DNA of 39,434 bases from a virus: IMG/VR virus record IMGVR_UViG_3300036791_000291, positions 1 to 39,434 of that record; one strand, 5' to 3'. Positions 2,715 through 38,214 of the stretch are shown piece after piece (within the stretch, counting starts at the first letter, position 1; the number at the start of each line of letters is the position of its first letter). Under the pieces are notes generated by a model. That model ran no database searches, was not told the origin of the DNA, and saw only the letters and a program-made list of their open reading frames with translations. The position numbers and the translations under genes are program-made.

Positions 2715-2939
2715 ATGCCGCTGCTCTGGTGGCGACCGCCGTGTCTCCTGCGTGCGGTCCTGGTGAACCTCATCGAAGATAAAGACACCGCGCTGAAAGG
2801 CGTGCTTTGGCAGAGTCGTGGGCCGTGGCTCGTGATGCGCGATGTCGCCATCGTGCGGCCTGGTCTCGCGCCGACGCCGATGGACGGCGAAGTGATCATC
2901 CATCGGCACAACGTCGCCTTCGTGCAGGTGCTCGCGTAA
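2715..2939 (+). CDS. Small late protein upstream of portal, function unknown
   Basis: 74 residues, beta-strand-rich C-terminal two thirds (VLWQSRGPWLVMRDVAIVRP, EVIIHRHNVAFVQVLA). Its stop codon overlaps the portal start (TAATG, 2937-2941), which argues for a real, translationally coupled gene. I do not recognise a domain. Short proteins at this spot, between terminase and portal, are common in HK97-type phages but are mostly uncharacterised. Confidence 0.6.
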   Translation: MPLLWWRPPCLLRAVLVNLIEDKDTALKGVLWQSRGPWLVMRDVAIVRPGLAPTPMDGEVIIHRHNVAFVQVLA

Positions 2940-4489
2940 TGGCCATCGTGCGCAGTGCGGGCGCACTCCAGGTCTACGGCGGCACCCTGACACCCGCTGC
3001 CGCCCTCGATGCCGCCGCAGGCTACGGCTCGTACCGCACGCGTTTCAGTAACTGGGCGTACACCACCTACGGCGAAATTTACCGGCGCCAGCCGAACGTG
3101 CGCACGGTCGTGGACTTCATTTCGCGCAACATCGCGCAGCTGGGCATCTTCGTGTACGAGCGGATCTCGGACACGGACCGCGTGCGCATCTACGATCATC
3201 CCGTCGCCGAATGGCTGGGTGACCCGAACCCCGCGACCACGCAGTACCGCCTGATCGAATCCCTGATCAACGACCTCTGCATCTACTGGTCGGCGGCGTG
3301 GTGGAAGATGCGCGACGCGCGCGGAAACCTCACGATGCTCGTGCGGCTGCCGCCCGAAGAACTGTTCGTGAGCGGCTATCTGACCCGTCAATTCGTGTGG
3401 GCGTCGCCGGTCGGGACCGTCACCGTGATCGACCCGAAGGACGTGCTCTACATCACCGGCTACGATCCCTGCAACGGCGCCTTCGGCATCTCGCCGATCG
3501 AAACGCTGCGGCACACGCTGGCGGAAGATGCCGCCGCCACGCTCTACCGCGAATCGTTTTGGATGAATGCCGCCAGGCTGGAAGGCGTCATCGAGCGCCC
3601 CGCGACCGCGCCGAAGTGGACGCCCACGCAGAAACAGGACTTCCGCGATCAGTGGTCGTCACGCTTCACCGGACCTCGCAACGCGGGGCAGACGGCCGTC
3701 CTCGAAGACGGCATGACGTTCAAGGAGATGTCGCAAAACGCGGTCGATTCGGAATACATCGCCGCGCGGAAACTGACCACTGAGGAATGCGCGCGGGCCT
3801 ATCACGTCCCGCTGCCGATGGTCGGCATTCTCGACCACGCCACGTTCTCCAACGTCAAGGAACAACACAAGCAGCTATACCAGGACACGCTCGGGCCGTG
3901 GTTGGAGTGGATCCAGCAGGAACTCGAAAAGCAGCTGCTGCCCGAGGCTGGGGATCCGACCGGGTATTACATCGAATTCAACCTGGCCGACAAGCTCAAA
4001 GGTAGTTTCGAAGAACAGGCCGCGAGCCTGCAGGCGCTGATCGGTCGGCCGATTATGACGGCGAACGAAGGCCGCGCGCGTCTGAACCTGCCACGCATCG
4101 ACGATCCAGCTGCCGATCAACTGGCGGCGCCGCTCAACATGGCGACCGGCGGGGCTCACATCCCCGCCGCCAGTGACGGCGGCACGGCGGCAGGTCCGGC
4201 GCCCGAGCAGGCCGCCGCCGTGATCGCGCGGACCTGGGATCGCCAACGACAGCGGGTCGAGAAGGTCGCGCTCGCGGATCGTGCGGCCGCCTTCGACGTC
4301 GGCCGATGGGATCGCGAGCTCGCAGGCGATCTCGACTCGCTGTTTCGTGCCGGTGGCCTGACCCCCGCTGCCGCTGCGACGGCGAGTGCGGCCCTGGCTC
4401 ACACCATCAACGGCGACACGCTGCAGCTGCTGGTCGCGCGAGAGAACCCGTTTTCGTCAGGCCGGGAGGCGGCTTTGTATGTCCAGTAA
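2939..4489 (+). CDS. Portal protein, HK97 type
   Basis: Forms the dodecameric channel at the unique capsid vertex that the terminase docks on. 516 residues with the family pattern: N-terminal NVRTVVDFISRNIAQLGIFV, tyrosine-rich YRLIESLINDLCIYWSAAWW, DVLYITGYDPCNGAFGISPI, and TTEECARAYHVPLPMVGILD followed by the NVKEQHKQLYQDTLGPWLEW helix and TANEGRARLNLPRIDDPAAD. Start ATG 2939 overlaps the previous stop; a longer in-frame start at 2807 would overlap the upstream gene and lacks the family pattern. The C-terminus (last ~90 residues) is Ala-rich. It overlaps the protease gene by 11 nt. Confidence 0.95.
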   Translation: MAIVRSAGALQVYGGTLTPAAALDAAAGYGSYRTRFSNWAYTTYGEIYRRQPNVRTVVDFISRNIAQLGIFVYERISDTDRVRIYDHPVAEWLGDPNPATTQYRLIESLINDLCIYWSAAWWKMRDARGNLTMLVRLPPEELFVSGYLTRQFVWASPVGTVTVIDPKDVLYITGYDPCNGAFGISPIETLRHTLAEDAAATLYRESFWMNAARLEGVIERPATAPKWTPTQKQDFRDQWSSRFTGPRNAGQTAVLEDGMTFKEMSQNAVDSEYIAARKLTTEECARAYHVPLPMVGILDHATFSNVKEQHKQLYQDTLGPWLEWIQQELEKQLLPEAGDPTGYYIEFNLADKLKGSFEEQAASLQALIGRPIMTANEGRARLNLPRIDDPAADQLAAPLNMATGGAHIPAASDGGTAAGPAPEQAAAVIARTWDRQRQRVEKVALADRAAAFDVGRWDRELAGDLDSLFRAGGLTPAAAATASAALAHTINGDTLQLLVARENPFSSGREAALYVQ

Positions 4490-24984: not shown

Positions 24985-25160
24985 CGGCCGCGCTGCCGGT
25001 CCCGACGTCCCCGTGGATCGCGCTCCTGCGCCTCGTGTTTGTCTGTCGCGGTCGTCACGATTTTCTCTGGAAGCGGACGCATGACGGGGAGTACCTCGAA
25101 TGCGTGCGCTGTTTGACGGTCCGCGTGATCGCTGCCGTCGTGAGGTCTGCGCATGCCTGA
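24981..25160 (+). CDS. Small Cys/His early protein
   Basis: 59 residues from GTG 24981. The middle is CRGRHDFLWKRTHDGEYLEC followed by VRC, so the set C...H...C-x-x-C could bind zinc; I recall small proteins of this kind in the early regions of GC-rich phages. The hydrophobic N-terminus (PWIALLRLVFVC) might be a helix. The end overlaps the RecT-like gene start by 8 nt. No function known. Confidence 0.55.
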   Translation: MTAALPVPTSPWIALLRLVFVCRGRHDFLWKRTHDGEYLECVRCLTVRVIAAVVRSAHA

Positions 25161-26034
25161 GAACCCCGTGGACGAATCGACGACCGCGCTGGCCCCTGGC
25201 CCGTCGCGCGCCGAGCCCGATCCGATGCGCGAGAACTGGCGCATGGCCACTGCCGCCTCGAAGTCGGACCTGGTGCCGAAGGCCTTCCGGGGGCATCCCG
25301 AAGATGCGTTCGTCGCGATTCAGAACGGCGCCGATGCGGGCGTCAAGCCGATGACGGCGTTGCAGGGCTCGGCGGTGATCGGCAGCCGTCCCGAGTTTTT
25401 CGGCGATCTGCGGCTGGGGCTGATCATGGCGTCACCGCTCTACGAGGACCACGACGAATACTTCGTCGTGAACGGTGACCGGCGCGACAGCCTGACCCCT
25501 GATGATCTGAAACTCGACACGACCGCTGCGGTCTGCACGTTTGTCCGCAGGGGTAAACCGCTGCCGGTCACGCGCCGCTTCTCCGTGGCGCAGGCGAAGA
25601 AGGCGCAGCTGCTCGGGAAGGAAGGCGCATGGCAGACCTTCCCCGACCGCATGCTGCAGATGCGTGCGCGGTCATTCGCCGCGAGGGACTGTTTCCCTGA
25701 CGTGCTCAAGGGCGTCAGCCAGGCCGCCGACCGGCACCAGCTGCCAACCGAGACGGCGCCGCCGCGTGTCGTGCGCCGCCTCTCGACGCCGCCTGTGGTG
25801 GTGACCGATCCGGCGGCGCCTGCGTTGGTCACGCTGGCCGCCGTCAAGATCGGCTCCGTCGAGGTCGCGATCCACGGCTACAGCGTGACCCTGACCGATG
25901 GGCGTGGTGTCCTGGCGGACGAAACCGCCGCGCTCGAACTGGAGAAGTGGGCGGGCACCGATCACGAACTCACACTGACCTGTGATCCCGCCGATGGCGC
26001 CTTGCGTGTCGTCTCCTGGCTGGTGACCACATGA
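25153..26034 (+). CDS. RecT-like single-strand annealing protein
   Basis: 293 residues. The family pattern: LVPKAFRGHPEDAFVAIQNG (~40-59), GVKPMTALQGSAVIGSRPEF, FGDLRLGLIMASPLYEDH, VCTFVRRGKPLPVTRRFSVA, then WQTFPDRMLQMRARSFAARD and CFPDVLKGVSQAADRHQ. RecT-type proteins anneal complementary single strands during phage recombination. An extra C-terminal ~75-residue domain (AAVKIGSVEVAIHGYSVTL) is not part of that core. Paired with the nuclease at 26225. Confidence 0.78.
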   Translation: MPENPVDESTTALAPGPSRAEPDPMRENWRMATAASKSDLVPKAFRGHPEDAFVAIQNGADAGVKPMTALQGSAVIGSRPEFFGDLRLGLIMASPLYEDHDEYFVVNGDRRDSLTPDDLKLDTTAAVCTFVRRGKPLPVTRRFSVAQAKKAQLLGKEGAWQTFPDRMLQMRARSFAARDCFPDVLKGVSQAADRHQLPTETAPPRVVRRLSTPPVVVTDPAAPALVTLAAVKIGSVEVAIHGYSVTLTDGRGVLADETAALELEKWAGTDHELTLTCDPADGALRVVSWLVTT

Positions 26035-26228: not shown

Positions 26229-26884
26229 GCGCGCTCGTGTTCGATCCGCTGTTGCACCGCTACGCCTTGGATGGCATGCCCCTGGCGCGGTCGGTGACGG
26301 GCGTGCTGCGCGACAGCGGGCTGGTGGACTTCTCACACATCCCGCCGACGATCTTGGACGCGGCCCGCGTCCGTGGCACGACGGTGCACCAGGCCGTGCA
26401 CTACTACAACGAGCGCGATCTGGATCTCGCCGCGTTCGAATTGGACTTCCCCGACTACGCACCCTATCTGCAGGCGTGGCTCAAATTCCGTTCGCAACGC
26501 ACGTTCCTGCCGGTGCTCAGTGAGCATCGCGTCGCGTCGCGCCGCTATCAGCTCGCGGGCACGGTTGACGCCTTGGGGTTACTCGATGGCGGCGCCGTGT
26601 TGCTGGACTTCGCAACCGGTGACCCCGCCTACTGCGCCAAGGATCTGCAGACCGCCGCGTATCTCAGCTTGGCGCGCGAGTGGGCCGATGAGGATCCGCT
26701 GCTGGCAGCCTTCCTGGAGCGGCATCCGCTGGTGCGCCGCTATGCCGTCCGCCTGCGGGCTGACGCGACGTTCACGCTGGAAGCCTACGCCGACCCCACC
26801 GACACGCGGCAGTTTTTCACACTGGTCGACGCGCTGCGCATCGTGGACGCGCGCCGTCGTCGACCACTCGCGGAGGTCGCGTGA
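26225..26884 (+). CDS. PD-(D/E)XK-type recombination nuclease with atypical motif
   Basis: 219 residues, GTG start. Layout follows phage exonucleases partnered with RecT: FDPLLHRYALDGMPLARSVT, RGTTVHQAVHYYN (His ~55), acidic VLSEHRV (Glu ~100), AGTVDALG (Asp ~115), LLDFATGD (Asp ~128) and LQTAAYLSLARE (Gln ~142, Tyr ~146). The usual D-x-K lysine is replaced by Ala (DFAT instead of DFKT); a Lys at ~139 (YCAKDLQ) might substitute, as migrated lysines are known in this superfamily, or the enzyme may be inactive. Confidence 0.72.
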   Translation: MSALVFDPLLHRYALDGMPLARSVTGVLRDSGLVDFSHIPPTILDAARVRGTTVHQAVHYYNERDLDLAAFELDFPDYAPYLQAWLKFRSQRTFLPVLSEHRVASRRYQLAGTVDALGLLDGGAVLLDFATGDPAYCAKDLQTAAYLSLAREWADEDPLLAAFLERHPLVRRYAVRLRADATFTLEAYADPTDTRQFFTLVDALRIVDARRRRPLAEVA

Positions 26885-27873
26885 AACACGCTGTGACGCG
26901 CGCCGTCGTCGTCAGCGTTCCGATCGCACAGGTGGTGATCGGCGCCCGCCGCCGCGACAAGTTGGGCAAGGTCAAAGCGCTGGCGCACAGCATCGAGGCG
27001 CACGGTTTGATCCATCCGATTTTGTTGCGGGGCGAGATGTTGATCGCTGGTCATCGCCGCCTCGAAGCGTGTCGGCTGCTCGGGTGGAAAATGATCACTG
27101 CGCGCCAGGTCGACCGGATGACAGACGATGAGCTCCGCGCTATCGAGCTCGATGAGAACACGGCGCGTGAAAACCTCAGCGACTACGCCACGAGTAAGGC
27201 GCGCCTCGCGCAGATCCGGCAGGCCGAGGCCGATCTCAAATCGAAGGCTGCCGAACGAGTTTCTGTTTCAACCCGAAACGGAAACTCAAAGCGCGGGCGA
27301 CGCGGCGAGGGCCGACCGAAGGGAACCACGGAGCCCGGATCAAAGCGCGACGTCGCCGTGGCCACTGGGATATCGCCGACAGAGCAGGTCCGCGTCGAGC
27401 GCCACGTCGCGCTCGCCGAGGCGTACCCGTTCATGCAGCGTCAGGGCTGGCAGCGGCATCACGTTCTCGATGCGGGTGACCTACTCGACCAGTTACCCGA
27501 AGAGGACTGCAGCCCAATCGCAGTCCTGCTCGACCAAGACGGTATCCCGCCACCGGACGCCTTGCGGCTACTGATGAACGGTGTCGCGATGACGGCAGCG
27601 CGTCGACGAAATGTGATCGAACTGGCCGCCAGCGAGGATCCATTCGTCCGCCGCACAGCGTTGACAAAACTCGGTGACGTGCCGCCGCCCGTCGATCCCG
27701 GCTTGATGGCGCTGCACGACGCCGACCGCGCGATGGAACGCGCTGCAGCGACGTGCCGATCAGCAGCGTTCAAGCCTCGACTGACTGCCCTCGCGACTGA
27801 CGTCGGCGCAGTACTGCGAGAGTTTCGCGCGAAAGAAAAGGAAGCGAGGGCCAGCTATGACACGGCTGTTTGA
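26881..27873 (+). CDS. ParB-like N-terminal domain protein
   Basis: 330 residues, GTG start overlapping the previous stop. ParB-type core: VSVPIAQVVIGARRRDKLGK, ALAHSIEAHGLIHPILLRGE, MLIAGHRRLEACRLLGWKMI and LDENTARENLSDYATSKARL, followed by a basic linker SKRGRRGEGRPKGTTEPGSK, where a HTH-like region (AVATGISPTEQVRVERHVAL) lies. The C-terminal third is helical. In phages such proteins act in partition, regulation or as nucleases/modulators; there is no parA neighbour here. Function open. Confidence 0.78.
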   Translation: MKHAVTRAVVVSVPIAQVVIGARRRDKLGKVKALAHSIEAHGLIHPILLRGEMLIAGHRRLEACRLLGWKMITARQVDRMTDDELRAIELDENTARENLSDYATSKARLAQIRQAEADLKSKAAERVSVSTRNGNSKRGRRGEGRPKGTTEPGSKRDVAVATGISPTEQVRVERHVALAEAYPFMQRQGWQRHHVLDAGDLLDQLPEEDCSPIAVLLDQDGIPPPDALRLLMNGVAMTAARRRNVIELAASEDPFVRRTALTKLGDVPPPVDPGLMALHDADRAMERAAATCRSAAFKPRLTALATDVGAVLREFRAKEKEARASYDTAV

Positions 27874-35965: not shown

Positions 35966-36241
35966 ATGAAAAATCGCGCCCGCGAAAGCCGGTCGAAACT
36001 CCCCGGAGCTTTCCTCGCAATTCGGCGAAATTCGAACAGGGGTATCCGCGAAGCGGGGTCTCCTGGCAGCCAGGCAGCGGGCGGCCCGAGGCGGGGAAAC
36101 CGACTGCCCGAGCCTGGAGACGACCCAGGAAAACCGGCGTGGGGCTCTCAGGACTGGGCGGAAACGATGGGCGATGACATTCCCAGCGACGATCAGCCAG
36201 GTGACGACTTCGACACCGAGGACACCAGAGGCTGCGAATGA
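35966..36241 (+). CDS. 91-residue disordered protein, unknown
   Basis: NRARESRSKLPGAFLAIRRN is basic; the rest (GSPGSQAAGGPRRGNRLPEP, DDIPSDDQPGDDFDTEDTRG) is Pro/Gly/Asp-rich and probably disordered. It overlaps the next start (ATGA), the main reason to accept it. No family recognised. Confidence 0.45.
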   Translation: MKNRARESRSKLPGAFLAIRRNSNRGIREAGSPGSQAAGGPRRGNRLPEPGDDPGKPAWGSQDWAETMGDDIPSDDQPGDDFDTEDTRGCE

Positions 36242-36876
36242 AAAAACCTGATTCCGCTGACACGAAACTGATCTCGGACCTGGTGCCCGACCCGGAGAAT
36301 CGGCGCGAGCACAACGAGCGGAACCTCGGCATGGTCCGCGAGGCGCTGCACGAAGTGGGCACCGCCCGCTCGATTGTGATTGACGAGAACGACATCATCC
36401 TGGCGGGCAACGGCGTGACCGAAGCGGCGCGCCTGGCGGGGATCACCAACGTGCGCATCATCGAGAGCCAGGGTGACGAACTGATCGCCATTCGCCGCCG
36501 GGGCCTGACACCCGAACAGAAGCGCAAGCTGTCGATCTTCGACAACCGCACGTCCGAATTGTCCACCTGGAGTAACGAGCAGCTGGCGGCGGATCGTGAC
36601 GCAGGCCTGGAGTTGCGACCGTTCTGGACCGAGGCCGAGGAAGCGATGTTGCTCGGCCAGGCGGTGGCGCCCGAGTGGTCCGGGATGCCGGAATTCGAGC
36701 AGGATGACGTGACGGCGTGGCGGAGTATCAAGGTGCATTTCGCCTGCCAGGAAGATTTCGACGCCTTCGCGGCGCTCGTGGGTCAGCCGCTCGGGCCGCA
36801 CTCGAAATTCATGTGGTATCCGCGTGCAGAGCGGGAATCGGTGCGCGACATGCGGGTTGCGAATGAACAGCCCTAG
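36238..36876 (+). CDS. ParB-like domain protein adjacent to glycosyltransferase
   Basis: 212 residues. The ParB/sulfiredoxin-like N-domain reads TKLISDLVPDPENRREHNER, EVGTARSIVIDENDIILAGN, GVTEAARLAGITNVRIIESQ, then RRRGLTPEQKRKLSIFDNRT. A C-terminal part WRSIKVHFACQEDFDAFAAL with KFMWYPRAERE seems specific to proteins coded next to TET-associated-type glycosyltransferases, as I recall. It may act in DNA binding or guide the glycosyltransferase. Overlaps it by 14 nt. Confidence 0.72.
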   Translation: MKKPDSADTKLISDLVPDPENRREHNERNLGMVREALHEVGTARSIVIDENDIILAGNGVTEAARLAGITNVRIIESQGDELIAIRRRGLTPEQKRKLSIFDNRTSELSTWSNEQLAADRDAGLELRPFWTEAEEAMLLGQAVAPEWSGMPEFEQDDVTAWRSIKVHFACQEDFDAFAALVGQPLGPHSKFMWYPRAERESVRDMRVANEQP

Positions 36877-37735
36877 GTTTCCGATCTACATCGTCTCGAA
36901 AGGCCGCCACGACACGCGCTTCACCAGCCGCGCGCTCGATGCGATGCAGGTGCCGTACTTCGTCGTGGTCGAGGCATCCGAGCACGCGCTCTACGCGAGC
37001 GTGATTGATCCGAAAAAATTGCTGGTGCTCGACCCGCAGTACCAAGCCGACTACGACGCGTGCGATGACCTGGGCCTGACGAAAAGCAAGGGACCAGGAC
37101 CGGCGCGCAATTTCGCCTGGGCGCATGCGCTCGCAACGGGCCACGCCTGGCATTGGGTGATGGACGACAACATCCGCAAGTTTTATCGGATGAACCGCAA
37201 TCACAAGATCCCCGTCTCGGACGGCACGCTGTTTTTCGTGATGGAAGAATGGTGTCTGCGGTACGCGAACCTCGGGATGGCGGGGCCTGCGTATGAATTT
37301 TTCACGCCGCGCAAGTCCAAGTGCCCGCCGTTCGTGATGAACACGCGGATCTACTCCTGCAATTTGATCCGCAACGACATCCCGTTTCGCTGGCGCGGGC
37401 GCTACAACGAAGACACCGACATCTCGCTGCGGCTGCTGAAAGCGGGCTGGTGTACGGTGCAGTTCAACGCGTTCCTGCAAAAGAAAATCGCCACGCAGCT
37501 GGTGCCCGGTGGCAACACGGCCGACTTCTATCAAGCGGAAGGCACGCGGCCAAAATCCGAAATGCAGGTGAAACTCCATCCCGATGTCTCGCGCCTGATC
37601 TGGAAGTGGGGCCGGTGGCATCATCTCGTCGATTACCGCCGCTTCAAAACCAACCGATTGATCCTGCGACCCGGCGCCGCCATTCCCAGCGGCGTGGACA
37701 ATTTCGGCATGAACGTGGTCGAGGTCACACGATGA
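36863..37735 (+). CDS. TET-associated-type glycosyltransferase (TAGT-like)
   Basis: 290 residues from ATG 36863, overlapping the ParB-like end. The N-terminus FPIYIVSKGRHDTRFTSRAL, DAMQVPYFVVVEASEHALYA, then PARNFAWAHALATGHAWHWV, MDDNIRKFYRMNRNHKIPVS with DD at ~101-102, and RWRGRYNEDTDISLRLLKAG with a second acidic cluster NEDTD (~182-186) match the TAGT family described by Aravind and colleagues as sugar transferases acting on oxidised bases in phage DNA. No TET/JBP oxygenase or hydroxymethylase is present here, so the acceptor is uncertain. Its stop overlaps the small terminase start. Confidence 0.78.
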   Translation: MNSPRFPIYIVSKGRHDTRFTSRALDAMQVPYFVVVEASEHALYASVIDPKKLLVLDPQYQADYDACDDLGLTKSKGPGPARNFAWAHALATGHAWHWVMDDNIRKFYRMNRNHKIPVSDGTLFFVMEEWCLRYANLGMAGPAYEFFTPRKSKCPPFVMNTRIYSCNLIRNDIPFRWRGRYNEDTDISLRLLKAGWCTVQFNAFLQKKIATQLVPGGNTADFYQAEGTRPKSEMQVKLHPDVSRLIWKWGRWHHLVDYRRFKTNRLILRPGAAIPSGVDNFGMNVVEVTR

Positions 37736-38214
37736 GAGGCCGCAAGCCGAAACCCACGGCGCAAAAAAGACTGGAAGGCAATCCGGGCGGGCGCAAGTTG
37801 AACGAGCACGAGCCCGAGCTGCCGCCCGCAGCGGACACGCCGCCGCTCGAATTGCTCAATGATGCGGCGGGCCTGGCCGAGTGGTCTCGCTTGGTGCCAC
37901 TGCTGCGGAAAGCGCACGCCATCAGCGAAGGCGACCGCGCATCCCTGCTGGCGCTCTGTCAGCAGTGGAGCCGCTACCTGGAAGCGAACAAACACGCCGC
38001 GCGCACCGGCATGGTGGTGAAGTCTCCCAGCGGCTACCCGATGCCGAATCCGTATATCGGGATTTCGAACAAGGCCCTGGGCAACTGCGTAAAACTCTGG
38101 GTCGAGTTGGGCCTGACACCAAGCGCCCGCAGCCGCGTGAGCGTGACACCTGGCGCCAGCTACGCCGACGATGCGTTTGCAGAATTCGACGCGCCGCTCC
38201 CAACGACGCACTGA
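37732..38214 (+). CDS. terS: Terminase small subunit, P27 family
   Basis: 160 residues. RGRKPKPTAQKRLEGNPGGR is the typical P27 N-terminus, followed by PPAADTPPLELLNDAAGLAE, WSRLVPLLRKAHAISEGDRA, LLALCQQWSRYLEANKHAAR, and KSPSGYPMPNPYIGISNKAL. It recognises phage DNA and loads the large subunit. It starts within the glycosyltransferase stop (ATGA). The large subunit is not downstream but at the other end of the window (746), unusual for this family. Confidence 0.93.
   Translation: MRGRKPKPTAQKRLEGNPGGRKLNEHEPELPPAADTPPLELLNDAAGLAEWSRLVPLLRKAHAISEGDRASLLALCQQWSRYLEANKHAARTGMVVKSPSGYPMPNPYIGISNKALGNCVKLWVELGLTPSARSRVSVTPGASYADDAFAEFDAPLPTTH

Follow-up and report, generated by a model that had tools for sequence, protein, structure and literature searches.

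What does a solitary glycosyltransferase modify when its gene lies between those of a ParB-like protein and the small terminase subunit, and when no enzyme making a sugar-accepting base can be recognised beside it? This question is raised by one end of the window, by which we mean the whole 39,434-base virus record IMGVR_UViG_3300036791_000291. The features concerned are the following:

35966-36241, + strand: small ORF upstream of the ParB-like gene, 91 aa, uncertain gene
36238-36876, + strand: ParB-like protein, 212 aa (phrog_620, E=1.3e-20; phrog_498, E=5.8e-17)
about 36238-36660, + strand: N-terminal ParB/Srx-type domain of the ParB-like protein
36667-36873, + strand: domain D (ParB-like residues 144-212), ~65 aa, best-conserved part of the ParB-like family
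36863-37735, + strand: TAGT-family GT-A glycosyltransferase, 290 aa (PF20691, 2e-38; phrog_842, 8.7e-44)
37163-37171, + strand: DDN motif, TAGT residues D100-D101-N102 (alignment A2), DxD-like metal/nucleotide-sugar site
37406-37417, + strand: NEDT motif of the TAGT, likely catalytic-base region
37732-38214, + strand: P27-type small terminase subunit, TerS (PF05119, 5.2e-23; phrog_83, 5.1e-39)
746-2446, + strand: large terminase subunit, TerL, at the opposite end of the record (phrog_9, 1.9e-149)
2807-4489, + strand: portal protein (PF04860, 2.4e-82)

The ParB-like, TAGT and TerS genes overlap at the coordinates given by the initial annotation. The TAGT starts with an ATG at 36863, 14 bases before the ParB-like gene ends, and the TerS ATG at 37732 shares 4 bases (ATGA) with the end of the TAGT gene, whose stop codon ends at 37735. 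That annotation also described the genes as 'fused by overlaps'; the overlaps are real, but the proteins are not joined, and a fusion of D with the TAGT occurs only in other phages. The 91-aa ORF shares 4 bases with the ParB-like start and matched no Pfam or PHROG family. Compared with its two closest relatives, the TAGT has a dN/dS of about 0.13-0.15; the ratio is 0.2-0.3 for the ParB-like gene within the window's lineage, and dN of TerS is well below dS against its nearest relatives, indicating purifying selection on all three and hence functioning genes. The record is probably a near-complete, circularly permuted genome, with TerS near its right end and TerL near its left; the records carrying the two closest TAGTs measure 39-41 kb. 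The recombination region, which includes a RecT-like gene (25153-26034), encodes another ParB-like protein (330 aa, 26881-27873, + strand; PF02195, 2.8e-7; phrog_3264, 8e-21) that differs from the partner of the TAGT.

The identity of the glycosyltransferase, first read from the sequence, was borne out by profile search, the match to PF20691 covering 201 of the 205 profile positions (1-201) with 132.8 bits, for a curated cut-off of 27.5. Structure prediction, proposed as a check by the initial annotation, yielded a GT-A fold: the AF2 model (pLDDT 91.8, pTM 0.90) retrieved GT-A enzymes with Foldseek at E=2e-4, as fold-level matches only. A PDB sequence search with the TAGT profile gave no match, and a search of plasmids found no TAGT. 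The DDN motif is invariant across the 44 TAGTs aligned and the NEDT motif near-invariant; a second clade of TAGTs (clade 2, below) and the T6 enzyme have DDD instead of DDN and keep the ED pair. PF20691 and the DD(D/N) and ED motifs are thus common to the window TAGT and the T2/T6 TAGT (beta-glucosyl-HMC-alpha-glucosyltransferase, ggt), which in T6 acts on glucosylated hmC in DNA (PMC13216743). Unlike the window enzyme, the T6 TAGT matches PF20691 at 1e-8 only, is undetected by the HMM of the window's TAGT clade, lacks D and a ParB partner, and works beside a dCMP hydroxymethylase and an alpha-GT. The possibility of a hidden D in the T6 protein was rejected, as none was found. Solitary TAGTs of unknown function have already been published, with TAGT homologs lacking an alpha- or beta-GT in 288 of 753 phage genomes (PMC13216743). 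The name 'beta-glucosyl-HMC-alpha-glucosyltransferase', propagated through PHROG 842 and RefSeq to many phages, some without a detectable hydroxymethylase, is probably wrong for the latter. Tandem TAGT copies were seen in a Verrucomicrobiaceae MAG contig (L101:9938-11853), Vibrio phage Kuja (L108:3581-6269) and a Planctomycetales MAG contig (L105:2-1539), which suggests successive sugar additions or two acceptors.

The T-even route to glucosylated hmC relies on a dCMP hydroxymethylase and an alpha- or beta-GT, and neither was found in the window, where the scan of ORFs revealed no glycosyltransferase besides the TAGT. The earlier observation that no TET, hydroxymethylase or other modifying enzyme is visible was upheld by a profile scan of the 39.4-kb record, which gave no match to PF12851 (TET/JBP), PF00303 (thymidylate synthase/hydroxymethylase), PF00145 (C5 DNA methyltransferases) or PF01555 (N4/N6 DNA methyltransferases). 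Two of these profiles detected their positive controls, T6 gp42 for PF00303 and a divergent TET/JBP-like gene of Prochlorococcus phage MED4-184 for PF12851. Neither TET nor a PF00303 enzyme occurred in any of 49 records, made up of the window and 48 TAGT contigs. A C5 methyltransferase was present in five of these records, the window not among them, and an N4/N6 methyltransferase, searched in a subset, in one TAGT contig and in Vibrio phage 1.076.O; neither type is a general companion of the TAGT. No recognisable TET was found in the seven cultured phages with the D-linked TAGT either, and the family's label 'TET-associated', adopted by the initial annotation, is therefore misleading here. PF00303 genes are unevenly distributed among cultured phages with this TAGT: none in Vibrio 1.076.O and 1.124.O, one match each in henriette and Kuja, two in POP12 that resemble pieces of one gene, one strong and one weak, below cut-off, in Aeh1, and an extra divergent copy in PTm1. 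With no bulk route to hydroxymethyl-pyrimidines, the acceptor would come from host enzymes or from a phage enzyme of unrecognised type, or would be confined to rare or sequence-specific sites. In the literature searched, we found no measured DNA modification for HHTV-2 or Lactobacillus delbrueckii phages.

The partner of the TAGT is the ParB-like protein. The window protein matches Pfam ParB_N below threshold, and its AF2 model (mean pLDDT 87.8) retrieved ParB/Noc N-domains as best Foldseek matches, weakly (E=3.5e-3); its relatives match phrog_498 (ParB + DNA methyltransferase) with E down to 6e-48. It consists of the ParB domain and D only, without the canonical ParB HTH and dimerisation domains. 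Most relatives have the box-II GxxR motif, and the window protein has GNGV; judging from this loss of the arginine, CTP use is doubtful, which counts against the base-glycosylation reading favoured below. Within the family, the ParB domain varies widely and the C-terminal ~65 residues, D, are the most conserved. The D consensus is EWxGMPEFEQxD...RxIxVHFxxxxDVxxFAxLIGQxxTxKTKxIWFP, with P151, F177 and P195 invariant in the family alignment. D matched no Pfam family, and a PDB sequence search returned four chance-level matches only. In the AF2 model, secondary structure within D is assigned to helix only, and such sparse modelled structure is compatible with D being a unit that may require a partner.

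D occurs in three settings: on a ParB-like protein, as a stand-alone protein encoded before the TAGT, or fused to the TAGT N-terminus in Aeh1-type phages. The TAGTs of Aeh1, phiAS5, 65, POP12, PTm1 and Kuja belong to the window's clade (about 49-54% identity), and those examined carry the same D as an N-terminal fusion, with no ParB domain and away from the terminase. The N-terminus is ~100-140 residues longer in Aeh1, POP12, PTm1, Kuja and Vibrio 1.076.O/1.124.O, and this extension contains D (hmmsearch, 1e-17 to 1e-9 against few targets; tblastn). In the first 81 loci collected, 75 had a ParB-like gene upstream of the TAGT, and in five of the six exceptions the TAGT lay ~110 bases or less from the contig end; one locus taken for a true exception (L028) was rejected as such, being a D-TAGT fusion. 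The converse search gave the same picture. A D consensus built only from ParB-like C-termini matched 16 of 50,697 phage records (about 11 distinct phages), with a TAGT directly after D in 16/16, and it matched no plasmid. When IMG/VR was searched with a DNA pattern for the D core motif, 55 of 56 loci had a TAGT within 0.9 kb downstream or fused, and in the remaining one the contig ends. Among 248 TAGT ORFs in the fetched loci, many of them related, 165 had a separate ParB-D, 59 a stand-alone D and 14 were D-TAGT fusions; eight lay at contig edges and two were artefactual, one being a read-through frame and the other the second copy of a tandem pair. These ORFs comprise 190 distinct TAGT sequences, and the partner was out of view in only 8, a contig end accounting for 6. 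Of 241 D ORFs, all but 3 lay within 1.5 kb of a TAGT; one of the 3 was 1.6 kb away, and the other two were on contigs not seen in full. We conclude that D is obligately linked to this TAGT clade, and the initial idea of a minimal module is supported, with the ParB-like partner as a part of it.

The second TAGT clade comes from Rac-type E. coli phages, Lactobacillus phages, six Vibrio phages, HHTV-2 and Nocardia phage NTR1, and its partners are ParB-like proteins ending in a different dedicated domain, D2. The D2 consensus matched 28 phage records, all 28 of them in the clade-2 TAGT list. D and D2 both appear undescribed, provisionally, as neither was found in the literature searched, a set exclusive of Iyer 2013. 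The E. coli Rac-type cassette (neighbour of ynaK) has the ParB-TAGT-TerS-TerL order of the window's kind but the other TAGT clade, and its ParB carries D2 and no D. When 5,426 complete genomes of E. coli were searched with a ParB-TAGT query, 863 contained at least 80% of it. The Rac gene ynaK of K-12 MG1655 (L267:3378-3641) corresponds to the first 86 residues of the Rac-type ParB-like protein, after which identity stops, and the TAGT is missing beside this stub; K-12 ydaY, considered as a TAGT remnant, was rejected for want of any similarity to TAGT. The TAGT is also split in phiLdb and a mere remnant in Ld25A. The cassette is therefore dispensable, as befits an accessory function.

A ParB-like gene, a modification enzyme and a terminase together have been described as the 'ParB-Tls locus', a site of DNA modification (Iyer 2013, as cited in PMC6536676). 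The window conforms to it, with ParB-like, TAGT and TerS genes contiguous and TerL at the far end of the sequence; its version has a lone TAGT and a TAGT-specific D on the ParB-like protein. A search with ParB domains of this type gave 260 phage records, with DNA methyltransferase as a frequent annotation, and the order common to the inspected loci is ParB - X - (TerS) - TerL - portal. X is an N6/N4 methyltransferase in Javan102, an FkbM methyltransferase plus a TET/JBP-like gene in MED4-184, and a TAGT in E. coli 473R12 (Rac-type), L. gasseri phi jlb1, phiLdb, a Porphyromonas phage, HHTV-2 and NTR1; in some loci ParB stands alone before the terminases. The MED4-184 TET/JBP-like gene (L261:5753-6538), which follows the FkbM-type methyltransferase in this slot, is annotated 'queuine tRNA-ribosyltransferase' and matches PF12851 at 3.4e-6, below cut-off; it is likely a mis-annotated DNA oxygenase. 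A ParBc protein also often accompanies the phage modification genes of CmoX/CmoY carboxymethylcytosine hypermodification, but the enzymes differ, and TAGTs or glycosyltransferases are absent from the main text of that paper (PMC12783734). Among the window's relatives, TerS and TerL downstream of the cassette come from several different families. The nearness to packaging genes thus belongs to the slot, a known general location of modification genes, and taken alone does not argue for modification at maturation; the earlier suggestion that coupling to packaging implies glycosylation near maturation does not follow. The window is a further case of the published ParB-Tls layout with a solitary TAGT, slot and family being already known.

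Taken together, these data lead us to favour, with moderate confidence, a dispensable accessory cassette that glycosylates the phage's own DNA bases against restriction. The TAGT would move a sugar from a nucleotide-sugar donor to a base, with D as a dedicated subunit that positions or completes it, and the ParB domain would hold both on phage DNA ahead of packaging or in its course; the phage would thereby evade restriction or another DNA-targeting defence. We infer DNA as the substrate from the shared ParB module, the slot and the T6 TAGT; what favours DNA modification is that in other phages this ParB module, in this slot, precedes DNA methyltransferases and a TET/JBP-like oxygenase. Against base glycosylation, no enzyme making a hydroxylated base was detected in the window or most relatives, and phages Aeh1 and 65 lack genes 42 and 56, the dCMP of such T4 relatives being probably without major modification according to a review (PMC2993671); the Aeh1 glucosyltransferase is elsewhere listed as presumably modifying DNA, base unknown (PMC8056088). 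A more specific proposal, which we hold only tentatively, makes D (and D2 in the second clade) a dedicated subunit that enables a lone TAGT to glycosylate DNA without hydroxymethylase or TET. The product would be a new glycosylated base, probably sparse or tied to particular sequences, and the ParB domain an interchangeable DNA tether.

A protein acceptor would dispense with base-making enzymes altogether. The TAGT might decorate the portal, capsid, terminase or D itself, D serving as an adaptor for the substrate, in line with the position of its gene among packaging and head genes (flanked by the portal gene and those for head morphogenesis in Vibrio phage 1.076.O) and with the protein glycosyltransferases COLGALT1 and ppGalNAcT among the nearest solved GT-A relatives retrieved by Foldseek, which also weigh against base glycosylation. 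These matches are fold-level only, however, and the TAGT lies among DNA metabolism genes (helicases, N6-adenine MTase, dUTPase) in 1.124.O and among clamp loader/polymerase genes in henriette; together with the ParB module and slot common to DNA methyltransferases and the TET/JBP-like enzyme, this makes protein glycosylation unlikely. Less probable still is a regulator of packaging, in which ParB-D/TAGT would mark or protect the pac/cos site so that terminase cuts or resists cutting. Such a role would agree with the ParB-TAGT-TerS-TerL-portal order and with the view, attributed to Iyer 2013 by a citing paper, that ParB directs modification during packaging, but that order is kept across different TerS and TerL families, the cassette lies away from the terminase in Aeh1-type phages, and the broken or lost TAGTs indicate no packaging requirement. 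Finally, decaying cargo without present function in a variable slot, as split or remnant TAGT genes in some relatives might suggest, is highly improbable and largely refuted by the dN/dS values of the TAGT and ParB-like genes in the window's lineage, the catalytic motifs of the TAGT also being invariant.

What appears to be new here is the strictly coupled partner domain D, the slot, the TAGT family and solitary TAGTs having been known. The D-TAGT linkage names a partner for co-expression, as assays of the lone enzyme would miss D, and the related ParB-TAGT cassettes of intact Rac-type E. coli prophages offer a tractable model. A ParB-D/TAGT cassette near a TerL gene was also seen in Erwinia sp. 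OLFS4 (contig NZ_MOMB01000047.1), with a TAGT 64% identical to the window's, a possible prophage model. Should these cassettes yield a modified base independently of hydroxymethylase and TET, they would represent a new way of making hypermodified DNA and add a new layer of protection against restriction.
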